A stretch of 64,000 bases of DNA, taken from Ruminococcus sp. (GTDB lineage: Bacteria; Bacillota; Clostridia; Oscillospirales; Ruminococcaceae). The notes under the pieces were generated by a model that worked only from the letters and a program-made list of their open reading frames with translations, ran no database searches and was not told the DNA's origin. The position numbers and the translations under genes were made by a program. Shown here piece after piece: positions 12,250 to 24,391 of the stretch. Location of the stretch: positions 80,765 through 144,764 of the forward strand of contig JAIDTI010000023.1 of the NCBI GenBank assembly GCA_029060755.1. Reading direction: 5' to 3'. The first letter of the stretch is position 1, and each line of letters begins with the position of its first letter.

Positions 12250-14970
12250 ATGCTTAGAAAATCCTTTTACTTTGATTTATTTTGCTTTTTTTCTATAATT
12301 GCCTGTCTGTTGCTTATTGCAAAAGGTACTTATATAGACTGTTCTTATTACCTCCCCCCCGTACTATATAATGAAATAAATTCAGCCGTAAACGCTCCCG
12401 AAGATATAGTTGTCACGGATTGCGGAACGGCTGATTCGTCATATAGAATAAACGTTCGTGAGACTGGCGACTACTGTCTTTATCTGCGCTATCTTGCAAA
12501 GAAGTCGAACAGTCCGCAGATTGAATTTTCCCTGAAGATTGACGGGGCTGTACCTTTCAGCAAGTCAGCAAGACTTATCCTGAAACGGACATGGACGAAC
12601 GAACACGACATATACACGGATTCAAGAGGAAATCAGGTGCGCCCCTCACAAGTGCAGTGTGAAACATGGCAGGAGTGCTTTATCCGTGACCCTGACGGAC
12701 TTTCAGGCGAACCGCTTGTGTTCCACCTTGAAAAAGGTGTGCATGAAGTATCTTTTGAATCGGAATCGGAATTTGAACTTGATTTTTTCAGCTTCTGCAA
12801 TCCGCCATCACCCGAAAAATACTCCGCACACAACATCACCCCGACAGATGCAGACGTAATCAGGATTGAGGGAGAAAATGCGCTGTATAAGTCTGATGCC
12901 ATACTCTCTCCGACCTACGACAATTCAGACTGCCTTGTATCACCGTCCGACCCTGTTAAAGTGGTGTACAACACAATCGGAGCAGGCAGAACATGGGAAA
13001 ATGCTTTGCAGTCGCTCACATGGGAATTTGATGCAGTCGAAAGCGGTTGGTACAGATTAGGCATAAAGGCACGCCAGAATCAGATGAGGGGACTTTATTC
13101 CAGCAGGCGCATATATATTGACGGAGAAGTACCATATCAGGAGCTTGAACAGGTCAGGTTTTTCTATGGCAGAAAGTGGAGTATCGTAACTCCGCAGACT
13201 GAATCGGGCGAAGACGTATATCTTTACATAGAAAAAGGCTCTCACTCAATCACCCTTGAATGTGTTACGGGCGAAATCGGCAAGTCTTTACAGCGACTTG
13301 AATCTGTCGTTGACCGCCTGAATGAGTGCTACAGCGAAATAATCATGGTGACAAGCCCGAATCCCGACAAATATACTGATTACTACGTCCACGAAAAAAT
13401 CCCCGACATAACAGAACGGCTTTCGGATATATCAACGGAACTGAAAAATATACAGTCGGAGATTGAAACAGTTTCAGAAGGTTCAGAAGTTGCGCTGATT
13501 GGCAATATGGCGGTGATACTTGACAAATGCGTGAAAAATCCGCTTAAAATACCTGAATATCTCTGGCAAATCAAAGAGAACATAGTTTCTGTCTCTGCTC
13601 TTATGTACGACTATTGCAAACAGCCCCTTGAAATTGATTACATGGAGCTTGCACCGTATGGCAGGGACTTTTCTGTCTGCAACGGCACACTGTTTCAGGA
13701 ATGTATGTTCGGACTGCAATCGTTCATAGGCTCTTTTTTTGAGGACTACACAACACTATCAGATGTAACGGACAAAGAAGCGGTTGAAGTGTGGGTTGCA
13801 TCAGGCAGAGACAATGCGCAGGTGATACGGGAACTTACAGAAAGCGGATTCATGGCGGAATATGATGTGCCTGTTGCGGTTAATCTTGTATCGGGAGGAA
13901 TAATTGAAGCATCACTTTCGGGTCGTGAGCCTGATGTTGCGCTGTTTGTCGGCGGAGAACTGCCAGTAAATCTCGCATCACGTGGACTTCTTGCCGACGT
14001 ATCGCAGTACAGCGGATTTGACACGGTTTCAGCACGTTTTCAGGAAAATGCACTCACGCACTATCAGTACAAAGACGGAACATACGGTCTGCCATTAACT
14101 CAATCTTTTGCAATGATGTTCTGCCGAACAGATATTCTTTCTACTCTTAGTATAACTTCTCCGCCTGAAACGTGGGACGACTTTATGAAGATTCTCCCCG
14201 AAATACAGCGAAATTATATGTCAGTCGGACTTGTACTGCCCTCCGCAGATATATCCCCCGCAACAGAATCGGGACATACTTTCGCTATGCTGATGCTACA
14301 GCAGGACAAATCCTACTACAACAGCGACCTCACACGCTCTGTTCTTGATTCGGCAGATGCGGTGCAGACTTTTGAACGCTGGACAGACTTCTACACGGAT
14401 TACGGCTTTTCTCAAAGTTACGACCCTTTCACACGATTCAGAACGGGCGAATATCCCATAGTTATTGCGGACTACTCCTTTGCGCTACAACTTGAATCTG
14501 CGTCACCTGAAATACGTGGCTTGTGGGACTTCTGCCCTGTTCCTGCAACTCTGCGCTTCGACGGCTCACTATCTCATGCGGTAAACTCAAATACAACAGG
14601 TGCGGTGATATTTAGCACTTCAGACAAGAAAAATGATGCGTGGAGTTACATAAAATGGCTCACTCAAACGGACGTACAAGCGCAGTATGGCAACAGAATT
14701 GAGGGTATACAAGGTACTATGGGACGATACCAGACTGCTAACCTGAACGCTATGGAGATGCTGTCATGGTCGGACAGTCAGCTTGCACAACTGAAAGCAC
14801 AACAGAGTGAACTTGCGGAAATCCCGATAACTCCTGCTTCATACGCCGTCACACGCAACATAATGAACGCTTTCAGAGAGACTGTCAACAGCGGAGAAAA
14901 TCCCCGAAACACGCTTATATGGTACAACAAGGATATTAATGATGAACTTGAAAGAAAAAATCGGACGTAA
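12250..14970 (+). CDS. large extracellular solute-binding protein (family 1) with N-terminal beta-sandwich domains
   Basis: The 906-residue protein starts with a membrane or signal segment (about 8-27). Two beta-rich regions follow (about 30-190 and 210-345), each ending in a pattern like LEKGVHEVSFESE and IEKGSHSITLECV that resembles carbohydrate-binding or PA14-like modules. A helical region with coiled-coil character follows (about 370-470). The last 400 residues (about 510-900) look like a family 1 sugar-binding protein: YGLPLTQSFAMMFCRTD, PPETWDDF, and SYIKWLTQTDVQAQYG. Usual binding proteins have about 450 residues, so this is a fusion twice that size. Overlaps the permease gene downstream, with which it should form a transporter. 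The ligand is unknown, probably an oligosaccharide. Confidence 0.82.
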   Translation: MLRKSFYFDLFCFFSIIACLLLIAKGTYIDCSYYLPPVLYNEINSAVNAPEDIVVTDCGTADSSYRINVRETGDYCLYLRYLAKKSNSPQIEFSLKIDGAVPFSKSARLILKRTWTNEHDIYTDSRGNQVRPSQVQCETWQECFIRDPDGLSGEPLVFHLEKGVHEVSFESESEFELDFFSFCNPPSPEKYSAHNITPTDADVIRIEGENALYKSDAILSPTYDNSDCLVSPSDPVKVVYNTIGAGRTWENALQSLTWEFDAVESGWYRLGIKARQNQMRGLYSSRRIYIDGEVPYQELEQVRFFYGRKWSIVTPQTESGEDVYLYIEKGSHSITLECVTGEIGKSLQRLESVVDRLNECYSEIIMVTSPNPDKYTDYYVHEKIPDITERLSDISTELKNIQSEIETVSEGSEVALIGNMAVILDKCVKNPLKIPEYLWQIKENIVSVSALMYDYCKQPLEIDYMELAPYGRDFSVCNGTLFQECMFGLQSFIGSFFEDYTTLSDVTDKEAVEVWVASGRDNAQVIRELTESGFMAEYDVPVAVNLVSGGIIEASLSGREPDVALFVGGELPVNLASRGLLADVSQYSGFDTVSARFQENALTHYQYKDGTYGLPLTQSFAMMFCRTDILSTLSITSPPETWDDFMKILPEIQRNYMSVGLVLPSADISPATESGHTFAMLMLQQDKSYYNSDLTRSVLDSADAVQTFERWTDFYTDYGFSQSYDPFTRFRTGEYPIVIADYSFALQLESASPEIRGLWDFCPVPATLRFDGSLSHAVNSNTTGAVIFSTSDKKNDAWSYIKWLTQTDVQAQYGNRIEGIQGTMGRYQTANLNAMEMLSWSDSQLAQLKAQQSELAEIPITPASYAVTRNIMNAFRETVNSGENPRNTLIWYNKDINDELERKNRT

Positions 14971-15826
14971 TGCTGAATGTTACCTCATGCTTGCGCCGTT
15001 CATGCTGTTTTTTACTGTTTTTACGGTGATACCTGTTGCAATGTCATTGCCGATTGGATTCACGGACTTTAACATGGTGCAGACCCCGAAATTTGTCGGG
15101 CTTGACAACTATATCACCCTCTTTTTGTCGGACAAGGTGTTTATGAAGTCAATCCGCACAACGATTATATTCGCCTTTGTCACTGCTCCGTTAAGCTATG
15201 TGATGTGCTTTCTGCTTGCATGGCTGATAAGCGGAATGAAACGTCCTTTGCGAAACGTTCTCACGCTGATATTTTACATACCGTCTATGGCGAACGTGTA
15301 TGCAGTCTGGCGGATTATTTTCAGCGGTGACATGAACGGCTGGCTAAATTCGTTCCTGATTGACATAGGCTTTTTGCAGTCCCCTGTACAATGGCTCACG
15401 GATTCACGCTATGTATTAGGTGTGGCGATAGTCGTACAGTTGTGGATTTCGTTAGGCGCAGGCTTTCTTGCATTAAGTGCTGGATTCAGGAGTATCGACA
15501 AATCACTTTACGAAACAGCGTACATAGAGGGCATGGACAGCAAGTGGCAGGAACTTGTGTATATTGTGATACCGTGCATGAAACCGCAGATGCTTTTTGC
15601 AGGGATAATGCAGATAGTCAGCTCTTTCACGGCTGATTCTGTGGTGCGTGAGCTTGTGGGATTTCCGTCAACCGACTACAAGGCGCACACTATCATGACC
15701 CACGCTTTCGACTATGGTTGGGTACGCTTTGAAATGGGCTATGCTTCGGCAATATGTACGGTGCTTTTCGTTGTGATGTTCGTGTGCAGTCGGTTTGTCA
15801 ACCGCATTTTCGGGAGTGAGAAATGA
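14939..15826 (+). CDS. sugar ABC transporter permease (MalF/UgpA type)
   Basis: This 295-residue permease has six membrane helices and the EAA loop (ETAYIEGMDSKWQELVYIVIP) that docks the ATPase. Starts inside the solute-binding protein gene (32-base overlap), with ATG at 14939 or 14942 behind AAGG. Pairs with the next gene. No ATP-binding gene occurs in the cluster, so a shared MsmX-type ATPase encoded elsewhere is likely. Confidence 0.9.
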   Translation: MMNLKEKIGRNAECYLMLAPFMLFFTVFTVIPVAMSLPIGFTDFNMVQTPKFVGLDNYITLFLSDKVFMKSIRTTIIFAFVTAPLSYVMCFLLAWLISGMKRPLRNVLTLIFYIPSMANVYAVWRIIFSGDMNGWLNSFLIDIGFLQSPVQWLTDSRYVLGVAIVVQLWISLGAGFLALSAGFRSIDKSLYETAYIEGMDSKWQELVYIVIPCMKPQMLFAGIMQIVSSFTADSVVRELVGFPSTDYKAHTIMTHAFDYGWVRFEMGYASAICTVLFVVMFVCSRFVNRIFGSEK

Positions 15827-16662
15827 TAAAGTCAAAAAAACAAAAGTTCGGCGGTCTGATTACAGAAATACTGCTGATTATACTTGCTGTATATATGTTC
15901 CTGCCGATTTATCTTACTGTTGTCATGTCAATCAAGCCGACAGAGGAGCTTTTTGTATTCCCGCCGAAACTCTACACGCTCCGCCCGACACTCTCCAACT
16001 TTACAAGTATGCTTGAATCAGCCCGACAAAACCGTGTGCCGTTTTCAAGGTATCTGTTCAATACTGTTGCGGTCACATTTTCTGTAACTTTATGTCAGTG
16101 CGTGTTTGTTTCTATGGGTGCATTTGTGCTTGCGAAGTGCGAATTTTACGGCAAAAGGATAGTCAATGCGCTGATTATTACAGCACTCCTCTATCAAAGC
16201 AACGTAATCTACATAATGCAGTATATGGTTATGTCGAAAGTCGGGATTATCAATACTCCGCTTGCGCTGATACTGCCGTCCATAGCATCTCCGATAGGCT
16301 TTTTTCTGATGAAGCAGTCAATAGCGCAGATACCCGATTCCATGATTGAATCCGCAAAAATAGACGGTGCAGGACTGTTTCGTATCTGCTGGCAGATTGT
16401 CATGCCAAACCAGAAACCTGCCCTGATGACGCTGATTATATTCGCATTTCAGGCATCATGGAACATTCAGGGCGGTAGTCTGATTTTTGATGAACAGCTA
16501 AAAACGCTCCCGTCAGTGATATTGCAGATTTCGTCGTCGGGACTTGCAAGGGCAGGTGAAACAATGGCATCAGCGGTCTTTCTGTTGATACCGCCTGTTG
16601 TGGTGTTCATGCTTGCACAACGTCAGATTATGGACACTATGGTACATTCGGGCATAAAGTAA
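15823..16662 (+). CDS. sugar ABC transporter permease (MalG/UgpE type)
   Basis: Permease of 279 residues and six helices, with an EAA-type loop (SMIESAKIDGAGLFRICWQIVMP). ATG overlaps the previous stop (ATGA). The island repeat begins four bases after its stop codon, so the operon is broken right here. Confidence 0.9.
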   Translation: MIKSKKQKFGGLITEILLIILAVYMFLPIYLTVVMSIKPTEELFVFPPKLYTLRPTLSNFTSMLESARQNRVPFSRYLFNTVAVTFSVTLCQCVFVSMGAFVLAKCEFYGKRIVNALIITALLYQSNVIYIMQYMVMSKVGIINTPLALILPSIASPIGFFLMKQSIAQIPDSMIESAKIDGAGLFRICWQIVMPNQKPALMTLIIFAFQASWNIQGGSLIFDEQLKTLPSVILQISSSGLARAGETMASAVFLLIPPVVVFMLAQRQIMDTMVHSGIK

Positions 16663-16665
16663 ACC

Positions 16666-16787
16666 GCACGCCTTTTGTCTTTCCGTACGCCGACCGTACG
16701 CCCCCTGTACGCCTGAATTTCCCGATTTACAGCCATTGGTACGCCTGTACGCCCTGAAAGCAACTTATATTAAAAAAGAATTTTTCT
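16666..16787 (+). repeat. iteron-bearing repeat, copy A (left edge of island)
   Basis: Copy A has GCACGCC at 16666 and GTACGCC at 16685, 16696, 16707, 16739 and 16747 (steps 19, 11, 11, 32, 8), followed by the shared tail CCTGAAAGCAACTTATAT and an A/T-rich end. Bases 16680-16787 match copy B over 108 bp with about four differences; copy C is the inverted counterpart. Confidence 0.9.
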
Positions 16788-16815
16788 TGATTTTTTTCGC
16801 AGAATATGTTATAAT
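16787..16815 (+). promoter_or_regulatory. promoter of the Rpn gene
   Basis: TTGATT (16787-16792), 17 bp, TATAAT (16810-16815). The -35 box begins on the last base of repeat A, so the repeat end forms part of the promoter. Confidence 0.7.
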
Positions 16816-16849
16816 AAATCTGAAAGATATACAGACAGGAGTGATTCCG

Positions 16850-17671
16850 TTGTTAAAACCAGTAAAAATCCTTACTCCCGAAGAACAGCATCAGAAAAAT
16901 CTTGAACAGCTTGCAAATTACCGTCCGCTTGATGATGATTTCATGCGTGAGCTGTTCAGGAATAATCTTGAACTGACAGAGTTTGTTCTTAGAATTATAA
17001 TTGACCGTCCCGATTTGAAGCTCATAAAAGAAGAAACTCAATACGACTTACAGCATCTTTTTGGAGAGCGCTCAATCTGCTTTGATGTATTCGGCATTGA
17101 CAGCGACGGACAGCAGTATGATTTTGAAGTACAGCGTGCCGATAAAGGTGCAGACCCTCGCCGTGCAAGATACCATTCAAGTGCTATGGACGTGGACAAT
17201 CTGAAAGCAAAAAAGCAGTTCAGTACACTTCCAAACACTTATGTAATTTTCATTACTGAAAACGATTTCTTCGGCAAAGACAAGGCAATTTATCCGATAG
17301 AGCGTATTAATATCGCTACAAATGAACCTTTCAACGACGGTGAGCATATTCTTTATGTAAACGGTGCTTACAGCAATGAGGCGGATAATTCCGACCTTGC
17401 AAAGCTGATACATGATTTCAGATGCAGTAATGCGGACGATATGCTTCTGAAACCATTGGCAGACAAAACAAGATTTTTCAAAGAAACACCGAAAGGAGTG
17501 GAGTATATGTGCAAGGCTATGGAGGAAAGACTTAATGAAAACTCAATTCAGATTGCATTAAATCTTCTTAAAATGAAAATAGGTACTGAAGAAGATATTG
17601 CCAAAGCTACAGGAATTGCACTTGAAAAAATCAAAGAACTTGCAGTTCAGATTAACTCTGCAACCGTATAA
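16850..17671 (+). CDS. Rpn family recombination-promoting nuclease / PD-(D/E)XK putative transposase
   Basis: Started at the TTG at 16850 (AGGAGTG at 16837-16843, six-base spacing) the protein has 273 residues. The nuclease core shows CFDVFGIDSDGQQYDFEVQRAD (given here in parts: FDVFGID about 78-84, then DFEVQ 91-95), the D...ExQ form of the PD-(D/E)XK motif used by Rpn/YhgA proteins. Family knowledge: Rpn proteins are RecA-independent DNA nucleases, and their genes can encode a small C-terminal antitoxin from an internal start. That arrangement is seen here (17507). It lies between direct repeats A and B. Confidence 0.85.
   Translation: MLKPVKILTPEEQHQKNLEQLANYRPLDDDFMRELFRNNLELTEFVLRIIIDRPDLKLIKEETQYDLQHLFGERSICFDVFGIDSDGQQYDFEVQRADKGADPRRARYHSSAMDVDNLKAKKQFSTLPNTYVIFITENDFFGKDKAIYPIERINIATNEPFNDGEHILYVNGAYSNEADNSDLAKLIHDFRCSNADDMLLKPLADKTRFFKETPKGVEYMCKAMEERLNENSIQIALNLLKMKIGTEEDIAKATGIALEKIKELAVQINSATV
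17507..17671 (+). CDS. putative intragenic small protein (RpnS-like) inside the Rpn gene
   Basis: An in-frame ATG at 17507 (residue 220 of the nuclease) has AAGGAG (17493-17498) eight bases upstream, better than the site of the full-length protein. The product would be 54 residues: MCKAMEERLNENSIQIALNL, then a short HTH-like part (EEDIAKATGIALEKIKEL). Known for the family: short C-terminal Rpn forms block the toxic full-length nuclease. That it is made here is inferred; the stand-alone copy at 17698 supports it strongly. Confidence 0.6.
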   Translation: MCKAMEERLNENSIQIALNLLKMKIGTEEDIAKATGIALEKIKELAVQINSATV

Positions 17672-17697
17672 ATCAGCGTATAAGGAGTAATATATAT

Positions 17698-17868
17698 ATG
17701 TGCAGAGCTATGGAGGAAAGACTTAACGAAAACTCAACAATGAAAGCTATTCAGATTGCAATGAATTTTTTAAAGCTGGGTACAGTATCTCATGAAGATA
17801 TTGCCAAAGCTACAGGAATTTCAATTGAAGATGTCAAAGAGCTTGCAAATCAGATTAATCCCACGTAA
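17698..17868 (+). CDS. stand-alone RpnS-like small protein
   Basis: This 56-residue gene has its own ribosome site (AAGGAG, 17682-17687). The protein MCRAMEERLNENS...EDIAKATGISIEDVKELANQ repeats the last 54 residues of the nuclease upstream, with a small insertion (TMKA) and substitutions that keep the hydrophobic pattern. It begins 27 bases after the nuclease stop. It probably arose by tandem duplication of the gene's 3' end and may be a second, separable antitoxin. A terminator follows. Confidence 0.75.
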   Translation: MCRAMEERLNENSTMKAIQIAMNFLKLGTVSHEDIAKATGISIEDVKELANQINPT

Positions 17869-17880
17869 ATCAGCACATCA

Positions 17881-17910
17881 TGCACAATCTTTTTCAAGGT
17901 TGTGCATTTT
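17881..17910 (+). terminator. terminator after the Rpn unit
   Basis: Stem TGCACAATC (17881-17889) with GGTTGTGCA (17898-17906), one T-G pair, followed by TTTT. It ends as repeat B begins. Confidence 0.7.
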
Positions 17911-18015
17911 CCGCACGCCGACCGCACGCCCCCTGCACTCCTGAATTTCCCGATTTACAGCCATTGGTACGCCTGTACGCCCTGAAAGCAACTTATATTA
18001 AAAAAGAATTTTTCT
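17908..18015 (+). repeat. iteron-bearing repeat, copy B (internal)
   Basis: 108 bp, same orientation as copy A and without gaps against it. Motifs at 17913, 17924, 17935 (GCACGCC, GCACGCC, GCACTCC), 17967 and 17975 (GTACGCC): steps 11, 11, 32, 8. Bases 17998-18015 also encode the last codons and stop of the helicase gene on the minus strand. Confidence 0.9.
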
Positions 18016-19380
18016 GTAAACTCCTTTGAATCCTCTTACATATTTTCCGTCTGCCATAATATGAGTTGAGTATGTTATATTATACTTTTTTTCGTTCTGC
18101 CTAATCCAGTTTATAAAACCCTCTCTTTTTATGTGTTCAAGTCCGTTGTGCGAACACCATGAACAATATGTATTAAAGAGATTAACGCTTGATATGGAGC
18201 TTTCAGGGGCAAATTCAAGCCAGTCGTCCTCCAGAAACTCAACTATATTGCAGTTGTTTCCGACAGCTTCTTTTCTGTTCTGCAATGTTTTTGCCGAAAG
18301 AGTGAATCTGAAATTGTTGTCTACAAGTCTGCGGAGACCGTCGAACAGCCAATAGAAAATGCGTGTTTTTTCCTGAATAAAGTCATCAGCAATAAACGGA
18401 TTATCAATTCTGCCATGTTTTTTCGGCTTTGTGGACAGGATAATCATACGTCTTGAAAAGCCCTCTGTCTTGTCGTATAATGCACGTGGAGAGCCATTCC
18501 CGAAGCAGAGGAAACGACAGTATATATTTGCCTGAAAACTCTGCTCAAACTTGCGTTCGACTTCTATCGGCGTTTCTGCTGTTACAATCGTCTTGAACAT
18601 ACCTGTTGAACTAAGAGCCTGCAACTGCAAATCGTCATCAATCATCAACAGCTTGTCCACAAGATTACTAACAAAAAATTTGTCTGTCTCAATTCTGTGA
18701 AGACTTGCTGTTACCATAGAACTGCCGAAAATCTCTTTAAGTATGATGCCTAATCTTGACTTGCCCTCACCGCCATTTCCTATGATAAACATTGCAGACT
18801 GACCTTTTGTACACGGCACTAAACAATAGCCTAAATACTCCTGCAAGGTGATTATATCATCATCTTCAAGCAGTTCATGGAGAAAAGCAAGAAACTTTTC
18901 AGGCTCATAGTTTTCGGGACGTTGTGAATAGTACTCAAAATTGAAGCGGTTTACACAAATCATCTTTTCGGGGAAAAACTTGCCGTCATAGCAGAGAATA
19001 CCATTTGCGACATTTATTCTGTCCTCATGAATTTTATCAGTTCTGCCGTTTTCCATAAGTATTTTCATGGCATTGAAAAGAGAATTTACTCTCTCTCTGA
19101 TTCTTGTGCGGTAATAAGGGAAAATCTCATGCGCAATATTCGTCTTTATAACGTCGTCTTCTTGCAATCCGTTCATATCGTAGAATCTGCCGTTGAACTG
19201 TTTTATATTGTACTTGCCGATATACCAGCCGACGAACTGTGGCTCATCAATCATCTTGTCTGTTACAGCCCATGACGGCGGAAGCTGACCTTTGAACATA
19301 TCACGCCTTTTCTGTTCGGGTGTTCTTTCGTCCTTTTTCGGCTGATTCTGATTAGGCTGATTCTGATTATTATATGCCAT
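17998..19380 (-). CDS. phage/plasmid P4-alpha-like SF3 helicase (primase-helicase family, short form)
   Basis: The protein has 460 residues from the ATG at 19380; GGAGG lies eight bases upstream, so the in-frame TTG at 19395 is less likely. It begins with a Gln/Asn-rich tail. The SF3 helicase part has Walker A GNGGEGKSRLG (about residue 205), Walker B KLLMIDDDLQ and a motif C-like CFGNGSP, the pattern of D5/P4 alpha and DUF5906 proteins. P4 alpha proteins have about 770 residues with an N-terminal primase; no primase domain is seen here, so this is either a helicase-only form or truncated. In P4, alpha binds iterons at the origin; the flanking iteron repeats fit such a role. Opposite in strand to the operon. 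Confidence 0.8.
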   Translation of the reverse strand: MAYNNQNQPNQNQPKKDERTPEQKRRDMFKGQLPPSWAVTDKMIDEPQFVGWYIGKYNIKQFNGRFYDMNGLQEDDVIKTNIAHEIFPYYRTRIRERVNSLFNAMKILMENGRTDKIHEDRINVANGILCYDGKFFPEKMICVNRFNFEYYSQRPENYEPEKFLAFLHELLEDDDIITLQEYLGYCLVPCTKGQSAMFIIGNGGEGKSRLGIILKEIFGSSMVTASLHRIETDKFFVSNLVDKLLMIDDDLQLQALSSTGMFKTIVTAETPIEVERKFEQSFQANIYCRFLCFGNGSPRALYDKTEGFSRRMIILSTKPKKHGRIDNPFIADDFIQEKTRIFYWLFDGLRRLVDNNFRFTLSAKTLQNRKEAVGNNCNIVEFLEDDWLEFAPESSISSVNLFNTYCSWCSHNGLEHIKREGFINWIRQNEKKYNITYSTHIMADGKYVRGFKGVYRKILF

Positions 19381-19431
19381 AATAAGCACCTCCAAAAAAT
19401 ATATCTTTCATAAGAGGGCAAAAAAAGCACC

Positions 19432-19464
19432 TTTTTCAATCAAAAAACATTGATTATTGAAAAA
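19432..19464. repeat. inverted repeat upstream of the helicase gene
   Basis: TTTTTCAAT (19432-19440) and ATTGAAAAA (19456-19464), 15 bp apart, about 52 bp before the helicase start. It could be an operator or hairpin; nothing else supports a role. Confidence 0.4.
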
Positions 19465-19492
19465 TGTTCACAAAAAGTTTACAATTACAAAG

Positions 19493-19612
19493 AAAAAATC
19501 TTTCTTATATAAGTTGCTTTCATGGCGTACAGGCGTACCAAAGGCTATAAATCGGGAAATTCAGGAGTACAGAGGGCGTGCGGTCGGCGTGCGGAAAGAC
19601 AAAGGGGCGTAC
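19493..19612 (-). repeat. iteron-bearing repeat, copy C (inverted, right edge of island)
   Basis: Reads as the reverse complement of copy A. Motifs on the plus strand: GGCGTAC at 19524 and 19532, GGAGTAC at 19564, GGCGTGC at 19575 and 19586, GGCGTAC at 19606: steps 8, 32, 11, 11, 20, the mirror of copy A. Like A and unlike B it includes the outer motif and the TTTGTCTTTCC stretch. Confidence 0.88.
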
Positions 19613-19617
19613 AGAAC

Positions 19618-20943
19618 ATGGATTCTTATAATTATGACAGAAATAATCTGCCGATACCGTCGCAGGCAGGATATACGGCTGAAACGTCCGTAAACGGCTA
19701 TACTATGGGAGTTGGTGCGCTTTCGTCGCCATCCGATATATTCCACGCAGGAAGACTGTTCTGGATTGCCGACACGGGCAACGACAGAATTATCGCGGCA
19801 ATCAATGACTTTTCCAAAGCCATGACCCTTGACACATTCACACGCCCCGACGGCACGCAGACTTCACTGAAATCCCCGACTGGTGTATTTGTATCGGGAA
19901 ACATTATCTATATCGCAGACAGTGGTAATTCACGCATCATTATAGCCGATTCTATGGGAAATGTTGTGAATGAGATAACAAAGCCCGATTCCGTGATATA
20001 CGACAGCAACAAAACATTCGTTCCGCAGAAAGTTCTTGCCGACGGAAACGGGAATATCTATGTTGTACTCAATAACATCACATCAGGCACGGCTTTATTT
20101 TCGGCTGATTGTGAGTTTAGGGGCTTTTTCGGTGCGGACAGAGTAAACAGGACTTCCGATGCGCTCCGTGATTACCTTGCGTTTCTGTTCGTCTCCGATT
20201 CAAAGAGGTCAAGACAGACAAGAAGTATTCCGACAGGTATCGCAAATTTCGACATTGACGGAGATTTCATTTTCACGTGCAGTCCGTCGTCAGTGCGCAG
20301 GCTGAATCCGTCGGGTGATGATATATTCGAATCAGAAAATACCGTTTTCGGCGACTACAAGCCATTATACGATACATCAGGCTATAATATTCCGTCAGCA
20401 GATATTGTTGATTTGGACGTTTCAGCAGACGACTATATAAACTGTCTTGACCGCTCAACAGGGCGCATCTTCCAGTATGACAGTGAGGGCAACCTGATTT
20501 TCATAATAGGCGGAGAGGGTAAACAGTCGGGCTTATTTCAGCAGGCTTGTGCAGTTGAATCAGTGGACGGCAGAATATATGTTCTTGATTCCATGAAAAA
20601 CAGCGTGACAGTGTTCGCAGAAACAGAGTTCGGACGCATTGTGCATCAGGCAAACGACCTCTGCAATGACGGATATTATGAGGAATCACTTGAATTATGG
20701 CAGAAAGTACTTGAAATGGACGGCAATTACAATCACGCCTATGAGGGTCTTGCATCAGCCTACCTACAAAAAGGCGAATACGAAAAGTCAATGCACTATG
20801 CGGAATTATCGTACTCACAAGAGATATACAACAAGGCTTATGAGGGATTCCGTCGTGATTTTGTGAAGTCGCACTTCGGACTTATATTCAGTGTGATTAT
20901 ATTATCAGTCGTACTGCTGAAAAAGATGAGGAAAAAGAAATGA
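19618..20943 (+). CDS. NHL-repeat/TPR membrane protein, N-terminally cut by the island
   Basis: From the ATG at 19618 there are 441 residues. NHL-type propeller units are visible (LFWIADTGNDRII, IIYIADSGNSRIIIAD, GRIYVLDSMKNSVTVF), then TPR-like helices (EGLASAYLQKGEYEKSMHYAEL) and a C-terminal membrane segment before a Lys-rich tail. As I recall the family, such proteins start with a signal peptide; here the frame upstream runs into repeat C and encodes only low-complexity Arg/Gly-rich sequence. The original start and signal seem lost, so export may fail. The reading frame is otherwise intact, with an ATGA overlap to the Yip1 gene. Confidence 0.75.
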   Translation: MDSYNYDRNNLPIPSQAGYTAETSVNGYTMGVGALSSPSDIFHAGRLFWIADTGNDRIIAAINDFSKAMTLDTFTRPDGTQTSLKSPTGVFVSGNIIYIADSGNSRIIIADSMGNVVNEITKPDSVIYDSNKTFVPQKVLADGNGNIYVVLNNITSGTALFSADCEFRGFFGADRVNRTSDALRDYLAFLFVSDSKRSRQTRSIPTGIANFDIDGDFIFTCSPSSVRRLNPSGDDIFESENTVFGDYKPLYDTSGYNIPSADIVDLDVSADDYINCLDRSTGRIFQYDSEGNLIFIIGGEGKQSGLFQQACAVESVDGRIYVLDSMKNSVTVFAETEFGRIVHQANDLCNDGYYEESLELWQKVLEMDGNYNHAYEGLASAYLQKGEYEKSMHYAELSYSQEIYNKAYEGFRRDFVKSHFGLIFSVIILSVVLLKKMRKKK

Positions 20944-21560
20944 GTGAGATAAAATGGCTAAAATACGCACTGATTCACATCTCCGACGGATTTGAGGAAC
21001 TGCGTTTCAGGAAAAAAGGTTCAGCGAAAATTGCGGTTGTTATAGTGCTGATGTTCTTTGTTGCGGATATTGTTTCAGACCGCCTTTGCAGTATCAGTTT
21101 TCACATATCGCAGGACGAAACTTTCAGCATCATACCTTACATAACATCAAGCATAGTGCTTTTTCTTGCGTGGGTGACGGGCTGTTCTGCCGTGAGTACG
21201 TTTCTTGACGGTGAGGGAACAGCAAGGAATACAGCGATATACAGTGCATACGCCCTTGTGCCGTATATTGTACAGAAGTTCGTCAACACACTGCTGTCGC
21301 ATATTGTGGTATCGGACGAACTCATATTTCTGCAAATAATCCAGACCGCAGGCACGCTATGGACAGCAATACTTCTTTTCTGCGCAGTGAAAGCAGTCCA
21401 CCGTTATACTTTTATACGCACTGTAATATCTGTTGTGATGACAATAGCTTTCATACTGATAATGCTATTCCTGCTCATACTGTTCATGTCGCTGATTCAG
21501 CAGATGTGGCTCTTTGTATCGGCAGTAGGCACGGAAATCCTCTATAGAATAAGGGGTTGA
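20940..21560 (+). CDS. Yip1-family integral membrane protein
   Basis: This 206-residue protein has five or six hydrophobic helices after a charged N-terminus, with the Yip1-like ILFLAWVTGCSAVSTFLDGEGTARNT segment (shown by its core SAVSTFLDGEGTARNT) and the later YALVPYI. Overlaps the NHL gene by four bases. Its function in these transporter clusters is not known to me; physical coupling suggests that it works in the membrane with the permeases or the NHL protein. Confidence 0.7.
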   Translation: MSEIKWLKYALIHISDGFEELRFRKKGSAKIAVVIVLMFFVADIVSDRLCSISFHISQDETFSIIPYITSSIVLFLAWVTGCSAVSTFLDGEGTARNTAIYSAYALVPYIVQKFVNTLLSHIVVSDELIFLQIIQTAGTLWTAILLFCAVKAVHRYTFIRTVISVVMTIAFILIMLFLLILFMSLIQQMWLFVSAVGTEILYRIRG

Positions 21561-21579
21561 AAAAATTTTTTAAAAAGTA

Positions 21580-21608
21580 TTGCAATTTGTATTTCATTAT
21601 GATATAAT
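21580..21608 (+). promoter_or_regulatory. promoter of brnTA
   Basis: TTGCAA (21580-21585), 17 bp, TATAAT (21603-21608), directly before the toxin gene. BrnA usually represses its own promoter; I could not define the operator. Confidence 0.7.
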
Positions 21609-21629
21609 AAAATAAAGGGAAGTGATAAA

Positions 21630-21911
21630 GTGCTTTTTGAGTGGGACGATAATAAAGAAAAGATTAATATCAAAAAACATAAGATAAGTTTTAAAATAGC
21701 AAGGCGTGTCTTTGATGATGACAACCGACTTGAAATATTTGATGACGAACATTCAGAGTATGAAGACCGATATATAACAATAGGTTTGATAAATGATATT
21801 CCAATGATTGTAATGGTTTCATACACTGAAAGAGGCGAAAGAGTAAGAATTATTTCAGCACGTAAAGCAACACCTCAAGAAAGGAGACAATATTATGAGA
21901 GTTTATTATGA
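21630..21911 (+). CDS. brnT: BrnT family ribonuclease toxin
   Basis: This 93-residue toxin starts at a GTG (21630). The pattern FEWDDNKEKINIKKHKISF at the N-terminus and RVRIISARKATPQERRQYYE at the end is diagnostic for BrnT, a RelE-fold ribonuclease of type II toxin-antitoxin systems. Toxin comes first and overlaps the antitoxin start by 17 bases, the usual brnTA order. It has its own promoter inside the sugar transport cluster. Confidence 0.9.
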   Translation: MLFEWDDNKEKINIKKHKISFKIARRVFDDDNRLEIFDDEHSEYEDRYITIGLINDIPMIVMVSYTERGERVRIISARKATPQERRQYYESLL

Positions 21912-22209
21912 TGATGATTTCAGCAAACCTTTGACAGAAGAAGAAATTGAAATGCTCAATGCACTTGCTGATATGCCAGCTGAACCTGACGAGGACTGCC
22001 CCGAACTTACGGACGAACAGCTTGCAAAACTCGCTGAACAGGCAAGAATCAGAAGACAGCAGAGAGGTACAAAGCAGACTGTTGCTATAAGATTATCACC
22101 GCAGGCTTTAACAAAAGCTAAATCATTAGGTAAAGGCTACACTACTATATTAAGTCGTATTTTAGAAGAAACACTTGCAAACAATGAACTTATCAAACAA
22201 TATCTGTAA
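21895..22209 (+). CDS. brnA: BrnA family antitoxin
   Basis: This 104-residue antitoxin has an acidic N-terminal part and a C-terminal RHH-type domain (KQTVAIRLSPQALTKAKSLG then YTTILSRILEETL), as expected of BrnA, which neutralises BrnT and binds the operon promoter. The last 26 bases overlap the start of the DUF5696 gene in another frame. Confidence 0.88.
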   Translation: MRVYYDDDFSKPLTEEEIEMLNALADMPAEPDEDCPELTDEQLAKLAEQARIRRQQRGTKQTVAIRLSPQALTKAKSLGKGYTTILSRILEETLANNELIKQYL

Positions 22210-24391
22210 TAAAAAAAAAATTAAAACTGTAAAAAAACGGAAATATCCTGCATTATGTGGGATATTCTTGTTTTTCGTCTGTTTTTCGGGGAATATTGAT
22301 GCTTACGAATATGCGGTGGAAACTGTTGAAATCAGTGTGGAAACTGTTGAAAGTGTGGGAGAGACGTTCACAAAATGCGCTGAAAATGACGGTTATATCA
22401 TGCTTGCCGACTATAATTCGGGTATCATTGCGCTTGAAAACAAGTCAACGGGCTATACGTGGTATTCGTCCCCTCCCGACGCAAAAAACGACAGCACGGC
22501 ATCTGCACTTATACAAGACGAACTGCTTTCGTCAAATACTCTCCGCTATGGTACTCCGAAAAAACGCACCGACAGTCTTGCACGCTCAAATACAAGTGAC
22601 TGCAATTTTACAGTAAGTGCAATTGATGACGGCGTACGCATAACATACAACTACAGCGCAGGATTTCATTTCCCTGTTGACTATGTTCTTATGGGCGATT
22701 ATCTCCGTGCAAGCCTGAAAGTGTCTGAAATTGCGGAGACAAACCCCGATAACACCGCAACAGAAGTTACAGTTATGGGCAGTTTCGGCGCATCATCAGG
22801 TGAGGACGGTTATTTTGTGATTCCCGACGGTTCGGGGGCATTAGTCCGATTCAACAGTAATACAACGTCCGACACCAACGCATATTCACGCACAATTTAC
22901 GGCAGTGACGTTTCAGCAGTACCCGACTACAACACCGCATCATCTCAACAGATTTACTTGTCAGCGTTCGGCATTGTGAGAGAAGATAATGCAATGCTTG
23001 TTGTTGCATCAAAGGGCGATTCAAATGCGTACATCAACGCAAAAATCGCAGGACAGTCCAACAGCAGTTACAACTTATGCAACTTCACTTTCGTCCTGCG
23101 CAACAAAGATACTTTCTATATGTCGGGCAGTTCAACAGATAAGTTTACGGTATTTGAATCGGGTGATATTTGTGCAGACGATATTGAACTGCGCTACTAT
23201 CCCATTTCAAAAAAAGATGCAGACTATATTGACATTGCAGAAAAATACAGAGAGTATATTAATATTACGCCGAAAAAAAACAGTCCTGCATTGTATGTCA
23301 ACTTGTACGGCGGAGCAGAGAAAAAAAAGAGTGTATCTGGTATACCCATAACCATGAAACAGTCCGCAACAAGCTATAGTCAGGCAGTTGAAATACTGTC
23401 GGAACTGAAAATCAAGGGGGCGGACAATATAGTTGCATCATACGTGAACTGGACGGACTACAGCATGGAAAACAAGATTGACACAACCGCAGAGCCGTCA
23501 TATACTTTAGGTTATAGGCGTGATTTCAGTAAGCTGAAAGAGTTCGCCGACGAAAATAACATCTCCCTTTATCCCGCAGTTCACAACCGTGACTTCATTT
23601 CAGGCAACGGCTATAATCTGTTTCATGCGTGCATACGTGCATCAGGCGCATACTCACGCATAGTAAGCTACGACAGGGCATACGGCATACCCGACGGACG
23701 ACTGAAAAACAAATCCCTTATTTCACCGAAGTATTTCAGCAAAATCTACTCCGAAACAGCCATAAACTACAGTTCAAGACAGATTTCAGGCATATTTCCG
23801 CAGTATCTCACGTCATCACTATACGGCGACTACAGCAAAAACAAAATATCACGCTTTCAGGCAATGCAGTACACGACAGATACACTTGAATCGCTCTCCG
23901 AAAGTCTTGATATTCTTGCGGATTGTGCAAACGCTTATGCCCTGCCGTATGTAAGTCATATAACTGATATGCCGTTGAGTTCAGGGCAGTACGATATATT
24001 CAGTGAGGACGTTCCGTTCATGCAGATTGTACTGCACGGAGTTATCCCATATTCGACAGTTATAAACAGTTCGCCGAATCCGACCGAAACACTCCTGAAA
24101 GCTGTTGCTGTAGGCAGTATGCCGTGCTATGATATTATCGCAGAGGAAACGGATGTTCTTAGAAACACCGAACTTGATGTGTACTACTATGCACGCTCCT
24201 ATGGTACGGCTGAAAAATATGCACTGATTAAGCCGATTTTTGAGGATATATCACAAAGCACCATAACAGGCTACGAATCAGACGGCAGTACAATAACAAC
24301 AACATATTCCAACGGCACTATTATAGTGACAGACCTGAATAAACAGACTGTAAACTTCAACGGCACGGAAATATACATGGGTGAGGAGTGA
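22184..24391 (+). CDS. DUF5696 protein, secreted or membrane-anchored
   Basis: This 735-residue protein begins at the ATG at 22184, inside the end of brnA; no ATG exists between the brnA stop and the signal peptide. The signal segment is about residues 25-42 (YPALCGIFLFFVCFSGNIDA). The rest is a large beta-rich then TIM-barrel-like protein, with YTWYSSPPDAKND and FVIPDGSGALVRFN near the N-terminus. I recognise the family as DUF5696 from its place between such permeases and binding proteins. A glycoside-binding or hydrolase role is possible but I cannot name catalytic residues. Confidence 0.7.
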   Translation: MNLSNNICNKKKIKTVKKRKYPALCGIFLFFVCFSGNIDAYEYAVETVEISVETVESVGETFTKCAENDGYIMLADYNSGIIALENKSTGYTWYSSPPDAKNDSTASALIQDELLSSNTLRYGTPKKRTDSLARSNTSDCNFTVSAIDDGVRITYNYSAGFHFPVDYVLMGDYLRASLKVSEIAETNPDNTATEVTVMGSFGASSGEDGYFVIPDGSGALVRFNSNTTSDTNAYSRTIYGSDVSAVPDYNTASSQQIYLSAFGIVREDNAMLVVASKGDSNAYINAKIAGQSNSSYNLCNFTFVLRNKDTFYMSGSSTDKFTVFESGDICADDIELRYYPISKKDADYIDIAEKYREYINITPKKNSPALYVNLYGGAEKKKSVSGIPITMKQSATSYSQAVEILSELKIKGADNIVASYVNWTDYSMENKIDTTAEPSYTLGYRRDFSKLKEFADENNISLYPAVHNRDFISGNGYNLFHACIRASGAYSRIVSYDRAYGIPDGRLKNKSLISPKYFSKIYSETAINYSSRQISGIFPQYLTSSLYGDYSKNKISRFQAMQYTTDTLESLSESLDILADCANAYALPYVSHITDMPLSSGQYDIFSEDVPFMQIVLHGVIPYSTVINSSPNPTETLLKAVAVGSMPCYDIIAEETDVLRNTELDVYYYARSYGTAEKYALIKPIFEDISQSTITGYESDGSTITTTYSNGTIIVTDLNKQTVNFNGTEIYMGEE

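Follow-up and report, generated by a model that had tools for sequence, protein, structure and literature searches.

What function do repeats with ordered short motifs serve around a lone helicase gene? We addressed this question for a stretch of 64,000 nucleotides from a Ruminococcus sp. genome (assembly GCA_029060755.1, contig JAIDTI010000023.1, positions 80,765 to 144,764), referred to below as the window, in which three repeats, A, B and C, accompany the gene of a superfamily 3 (SF3)/D5-type Rep helicase (Table 1). An initial annotation proposed that these repeats are origin or end sites of the helicase. Comparison with related genomes suggests that each of them is very probably one arm, i.e. 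one half, of a palindromic origin, and their place, motif grammar and homology, together with a coupled difference in the protein, make it highly likely that the helicase binds the arms as its origin. The unit B-helicase-C is probably the replication module of an integrative element in stripped form, with a palindromic origin that has been split at its dyad.

The repeats as candidate halves of a palindromic origin

As initially described, A and B are direct copies (16680-16787 and 17908-18015; 96% identity over 108 nt), and C is an inverted copy, 87% identical to A over 119 nt (16671-16789 / 19488-19606) and 93% identical to B over 97 nt; the three repeats are 97-119 bp each. Relative to the first motif of a closely spaced doublet, the motifs start at −73, −54, −43, −32, 0 and +8 in A, at −54, −43, −32, 0 and +8 in B, and at −74, −54, −43, −32, 0 and +8 in C. 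The resulting steps of 20-11-11-32-8 bp (the outermost step is 19 in A and 20 in C) are exactly those given by the initial annotation, which also correctly stated that letters vary inside the motifs (GTACGCC, GCACGCC, GTACTCC, GCACTCC) at fixed spacing. A strict scan for this grammar revealed 39 units in 26 loci of 8 genomes (loci picked for carrying arms, some of them without any unit) and zero units in five mononucleotide shuffles of each. Among the window arms only A passes the strict pattern, since B and C hold ..ACTCC variants.

Relatives of the helicase are present in 51 of 125 genomes of the genus (E ≤ 1e-10) and in 63 of 396 genomes of the family (E ≤ 1e-20). From the loci fetched we examined 51 helicase loci, 49 of them with downstream DNA and some truncated by contig ends. 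Many of these relatives have a block of short motifs in mirror symmetry directly 3′ of the helicase stop codon, which is the origin position in Staphylococcus aureus pathogenicity islands (SaPIs) and phage-inducible chromosomal islands (PICIs). According to PMC7581432, SaPI Rep uses its C-terminal domain to read an origin of iterons that lies immediately 3′ of its gene, and PMC6092414 describes PICI origins as two iteron sets flanking an AT-rich part.

Of the 49 loci, some of them near-copies, 23 passed a strict test that looked for mirrored 8-step doublets within 320 bp. The scores of these loci (24-28) were reached by 0 of 100 dinucleotide shuffles at each locus, and the coding control window (one per locus) scored 20 or less. 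The distance between mirrored doublets is 121-147 bp in 15 of the 23 loci, as in the full grammar, and 43-44 or 104-107 bp in the remaining 8, so not all of these loci have the same layout. The full grammar (8-31-13-19, a centre of 9-13, then 19-13-31-8) was found in loci L041, L070 and L074, with variations elsewhere, and the window arm (8-32-11-11-20) equals one half of it with one extra 11-bp step. A sequence model (R1) whose only input was 15 arms of three genomes, all of them split or dispersed, located this block downstream of six further helicases (G049 C68 and C21; G042 C128; G109 C86 and C198; G122 C27), which are 40-51% identical to the window helicase. The same blocks downstream of relatives and the motif-wing coupling described below make it very probable that the repeats are sites at an origin, as had been proposed, each of them being only half of one.

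A stretch of >100 bp, with a repeat that recurs upstream of the helicase, interrupts the block behind the helicase of G088 (L039, ~1200-1380; motif near TGCCTAA). An inverted repeat around the L039 helicase was considered as an arm pair and rejected, as it is not composed of arms.

The window genome (G000) and its nearest relative (G109) fail the strict palindrome test, as expected if their palindrome is split. B is located downstream of the helicase and the mirror arm C upstream, the centre side of both pointing outward; by self-BLAST, arms on both sides of the helicase were found in these two genomes only, among the 51 loci (some cut by contig ends). Joining the B and C ends, as in a circle, would give the canonical helicase-origin order, judging by order and polarity. 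We therefore lean towards reading the inserted form as a circle opened at the origin centre, the simplest account of the polarity seen in several elements.

The unit is flanked by the genes of an ABC permease and an NHL-repeat protein. These genes adjoin in three genomes from other species of the genus, with 20, 11 and 13 bp from the permease stop to the NHL start in G095, G006 and G121, respectively, which indicates that the window unit is an insertion. Its ends carry inverted terminal repeats, the mark of miniature inverted-repeat transposable elements (MITEs) and inverted-repeat transposons. G109 contains, at the same site, an insertion composed of arm, helicase and arm only, with no Rpn gene; its arms are 95.8% alike over 120 bp. 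This insertion without A and Rpn suggests that B-helicase-C is the older part and that A and Rpn were probably added later in the window lineage, or else they may have been lost in G109. The annotation of the repeats as unit ends holds for B and C, in view of the empty sites in relatives. The outermost motif of C ends 5 bp ahead of the NHL-repeat gene ATG (19618), and an AAAGGGG inside the spacer of the two outer motifs of this arm (window 19590-19618) may now be the ribosome-binding site of that gene.

Table 1. Features of the window unit and its arms
Feature	Position	Strand	Remarks
Repeat A, putative half-origin arm	16666..16789	+	outer motif 16666, motifs 16685/16696/16707, core, doublet 16739/16747
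Rpn-family PD-(D/E)XK nuclease gene	16850..17671	+	PF12784 4.1e-9; TIGR01784 3.5e-10, below its cut-off
56-aa open reading frame (ORF), RpnS-like	17698..17868	+	duplicate of Rpn C-terminus, 67% over 54 aa
Repeat B, putative half-origin arm at helicase stop codon	17908..18015	+	without outermost motif
SF3/D5-type Rep helicase, 460 aa	17998..19380	-	ORF open to 19395; winged-helix-like C-terminus, T436 in wing
Repeat C, putative mirror half-origin arm upstream of helicase	19488..19612	-	outermost motif 19606-19612

Coupled change of arm motif and helicase wing

The helicase was initially described as P4-alpha-like, and it does score above the cut-off of TIGR01613, the P4 family model (119.6 vs 108.7 bits), with DUF5906 present. 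Its closest known protein is, however, the SaPI5 primase-helicase, and it belongs to the SF3/D5-type Rep helicases related to SaPI Rep. The protein aligns with the SaPI5 primase-helicase from residue 332/333 of the latter onward, which leaves no room for a primase part. P4 alpha has a primase, and its combination of primase fused to helicase with a C-terminal ori-binding domain is not found in the window protein. In the predicted structure (mean predicted local distance difference test score, pLDDT, 78.5), helices 398-411 and 419-428 are followed by strands 436-443 and 446-452, a winged-helix-like layout in which residue 436 opens a wing strand.

The ratio of nonsynonymous to synonymous substitution rates (dN/dS) between the helicases of G000 and G109 is 0.13 for the whole gene, 0.079 for the core and 0.46 for the last 35 codons (permease, 0.124). 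The helicase core is under purifying selection; the low ratio indicates that the gene has been kept under selection while its predicted DNA-reading end changes faster. Of the 36 aligned positions at which the two proteins differ, 13 fall within the first 40 residues, 6 among the 225 residues 126-350 and 5 among the 30 residues 431-460 (T436K, H440R, Y447R, K452N and Y455H).

The arms of the two genomes differ in a corresponding way. In five orthologous arm pairs, 22 of the 23 alignable motif T's of G000 are C in G109, and the exception sits in a gapped part of the alignment. Changes affect 58 of 526 other arm columns, and 11 of 149 other T's are C in G109. A general loss of GTAC in G109 was rejected as the cause (92 seen vs 93.2 expected); outside the arms, in neighbouring and mostly coding DNA, 24 of 32 aligned GTACs are kept and 2 have become GCAC.

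The same association was observed among 27 helicases classed by the letter at motif position 2: residue 436 is K in 10 of the 12 with C motifs vs 0 of the 15 with T motifs (Fisher test, 7.8e-6, ignoring relatedness). For L035, the motif was taken from the arms by eye. The other 24 of the 51 loci were left aside for want of a readable doublet of this type or because of a truncated C-terminus; they include L047 (AGACACC, neither T nor C) and L039 (another motif). In a tree from which the final part of the protein was omitted, the motif letter requires five changes, and well-supported branches force three.

Gene-free elements and the weighing of explanations

G000 holds eight repeat matches: three in the window, inverted pairs on contigs C22 and C63, and one on C4 near the contig end. 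The C22 and C63 elements (~510 bp) have their arm centre sides outward, and 278 of 291 positions of their interiors are identical. The C22 element lies between parE-like and parC-like genes, the stop codon of the former sharing its last base with the outermost motif. At this site in nine relatives, the next start codon is at most ~50 bp from the parE-like stop in five and ~230 bp in one, and three have another gene there. In G109, contig ends truncate the copies at the C22 and C63 sites, and a further copy with outward arms lies on C1. Gene conversion of the whole arm at C22 is unlikely, as G109 retains site-specific letters of the orthologous G000 arm; some conversion between C22 and C63 may have occurred, since their interiors are 95.5% alike though both sites are common to G109.

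A different gene-free element occupies three sites in G054 (416, 245 and 230 bp by matching stretches), with arms outward; in the third copy one of the two arms was recognized by a BLAST match. Gene-free elements thus span ~230-510 bp and occur in G000 and two other species. No helicase remnant was found in 20 arm-bearing loci (tblastn, E ≤ 1e-3). Lone, tandem and palindromic arms are present in G121, G122, G088, G085 and others. The initial annotation had named repeats without the helicase and with random spacing as evidence against its proposal: repeats do occur without the helicase, but their spacing stays fixed. Motifs agree in their first two letters in 88 of 108 pairs within units vs 1589 of 2448 between units.

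In G121 (L145-L151), tandem arms of different motif type adjoin each other (L149 has ATACGCC beside the GCACGC type) and also adjoin a different palindromic repeat, itself dispersed (GCGGAGGCTCTCCGC). Cargo elements bounded by arm pairs 1.8-4 kb apart were considered in this genome and rejected, as the enclosed ORFs resemble ordinary chromosomal genes by their sequence starts. At L002 (3927-4433), a gene-free element forms the end of a 168-aa ORF, the final residues of which are read from the arm.

These data can be combined into the following scheme. A SaPI5-Rep-like SF3 initiator would read the NYACGCC motif by its C-terminal winged helix, the origin being a palindrome of two mirror arms, and gene-free elements with outward arms would be non-autonomous passengers, recognisable by the helicase in trans. 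The element would transiently be a replicating circle, which might be opened where the palindrome centre is unwound, either by a recombinase or by cutting of a cruciform or hairpin, and the linear form could then be captured at a chromosomal break. A-Rpn-B may have been added later, e.g. by an arm-bearing circle recombining with B. The scheme draws on arm identity, polarity and grammar, shared insertion sites, motif-helicase coupling and purifying selection, all of which are observed.

Several points weigh against it. Helicase binding, origin function, the circle, its breakage and its capture are all inferred here, and the genomes compared are drafts throughout. The strict palindrome test was failed by 26 of the 49 loci, and R1 recovers the block at only 6 of the 29 top-scoring helicases (E ≤ 1e-78, not counting the two that contributed to the model), missing most helicase-linked blocks. 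The outermost motif is missing from B and the outer motifs of G109 are at −64 and −84, so the element ends are not base-exact; no target-site duplication is evident by eye, and the closest empty sites come from species whose NHL proteins are ~60% alike. As to the coupling, taking B instead of A as the partner of the left G109 arm replaces 22/23 by 19/20. The arms of G000 are mixed, B, C and C63l having C at some outer motifs, and the C4 doublet has C though the resident helicase is of the T type. The 27 helicases contain near-copies (26 are different) and the test ignores relatedness; L070 (R) and L078 (S) are exceptions to the residue-436 rule, and outside the 27 L079 (Q, by eye) and L167 (S) have C motifs without K. 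Finally, no helicase match (E ≤ 1e-10) was found in G121 (22 arm matches) or G054 (5), and the tandem arms of G088, G121 and G122 are left unexplained by an opened circle.

The several copies and the MITE-like derivatives with similar interiors might instead point to an ordinary transposon, in which a transposase acting in trans cuts at the arms, as its terminal inverted repeats, and the helicase is carried along; the ends of large transposons are likewise long and multi-site. We consider this unlikely, as in relatives the same blocks form an internal palindrome behind helicases rather than ends, and the motif goes with the helicase wing. No transposase ORF lies between A and C and none was seen in the gene-free copies fetched, a genome-wide transposase search not having been made, and no target duplication was seen. 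A decayed integrative mobilizable element, of which deletions and local rearrangement left arms and helicase, with the dispersed arms as old debris, is a rather improbable alternative. It would agree with the arms without a helicase match in G121 and G054, and with the relaxase, CHC2 zinc-finger protein and integrase that accompany canonical relatives, none of which occur here. The core dN/dS of 0.079, the dispersed arms changing together at the motif letter, and the outward-arm layout repeated at several sites and in another species are difficult to reconcile with such a relic.

It is very unlikely that the arms are chromosomal decoys, i.e. half-origins kept by the host to titrate the initiators of invading satellites or mobilizable elements as a form of incompatibility immunity. 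The conserved interiors and outward ends of the gene-free elements resemble those of mobile elements, and decoys would bring a resident helicase no obvious gain, although in G000 and G109 the arms agree with the helicase of the same genome. We retain the decoy explanation because tandem arms and helicase-free genomes need further explanation: G121 combines many arms of different motif types with no helicase match, and first-two-letter agreement is higher within units than between them.

Returning to the split replication module, we tentatively raise the possibility, which we regard as doubtful, that it represents a new class of mobile DNA, origin-ended elements. In such elements a lone SF3 initiator helicase with a split palindromic origin would be autonomous and gene-free elements its passengers, replication at the joined ends would both amplify the circle and make the inserting break, and small changes of the wing would accompany re-tuned dispersed half-origins in a genome. 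As the break at the palindrome centre would come from replication at the joined ends, no dedicated transposase would be needed. The helicase family is tied to its origins by a readable grammar and offers a testable recognition residue, and the putative origin halves delimit the inserted unit as well as the gene-free copies. Should the ends join, replication initiation and insertion would here be a single process in a bacterium, and a family of intergenic repeats in the genus would be explained.

Neighbouring genes and relation to known systems

The gene between A and B, absent from the initial annotation, codes for an Rpn-type nuclease. Its C-terminal part, duplicated as the 56-aa ORF, includes the stretch around an internal ATG. 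In Escherichia coli, such C-terminal parts of Rpn are antitoxins made from inside the gene, according to a section of PMC10327210; by analogy, the antitoxin-like part may have turned into a separate gene in the window. The sole PADLOC match, Csn2 (E 0.019) for the Rpn protein, was taken as chance. Downstream of the NHL gene (21630-22209), Pfam identified a BrnT/BrnA toxin-antitoxin pair.

Rfam gave nothing at gathering scores over 14000-23000. The exact degenerate arm pattern had 0 matches in the genome or viral contig collections, which is no measure of its spread beyond the genus. A single-protein helicase query of genome contigs returned 2 loci, the G109 contig and a 28% archaeal match; in viral contigs such a query found no relative, and an alignment query found 21 loci. 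Half-origins as element ends were not described in the titles and abstract openings returned by an open-access literature search, which mostly lacks subscription papers.

Like bacterial MITEs, the gene-free elements are short, have no genes, carry inverted ends and occur in several intergenic copies. They differ in that their ends have the grammar of a helicase origin and that no parent transposase was seen in the copies fetched; the words origin of replication, helicase and replicon are absent from a MITE review (PMC10969869). With adeno-associated virus (AAV) Rep and its inverted terminal repeats, the unit shares an SF3 helicase and a putative palindromic origin as element ends. This is a functional analogy: AAV-type Rep matched the window helicase by the helicase fold only, and the window protein has no HUH nuclease part.

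Phage P4 alpha, with TIGR01613 above its cut-off in the window helicase, resembles the present system in its D5-type helicase, C-terminal DNA-binding domain and iterons; so does SCCmec (staphylococcal cassette chromosome mec) Cch2, with a Primase_Cterm/D5-type helicase, as described in a section of PMC7581432. The origins of both, unlike the putative origin of the window unit, are not located at element ends. Integrative mobilizable elements with a CHC2-DUF5906 module (L188, L190) share the helicase family and have a palindromic block directly downstream. Their relaxase and site-specific recombinase did not turn up among the listed ORFs of the unit or in a scan of six ORFs, and the unit, with arms at its ends, differs from them in having no relaxase, CHC2 protein or integrase.

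The nearest known kind is the SaPI5-type Rep-ori replicon of SaPIs and PICIs. The window unit departs from it in having no primase domain, phage-related gene or integrase (none was seen among the ORFs between A and C, i.e. helicase, Rpn and short ORFs). Instead of a complete iteron origin directly 3′ of rep, it has B alone on the 3′ side and the mirror arm on the 5′ side, so that its putative origin is split into arms on either side of the gene, and gene-free dispersed copies exist beside it.

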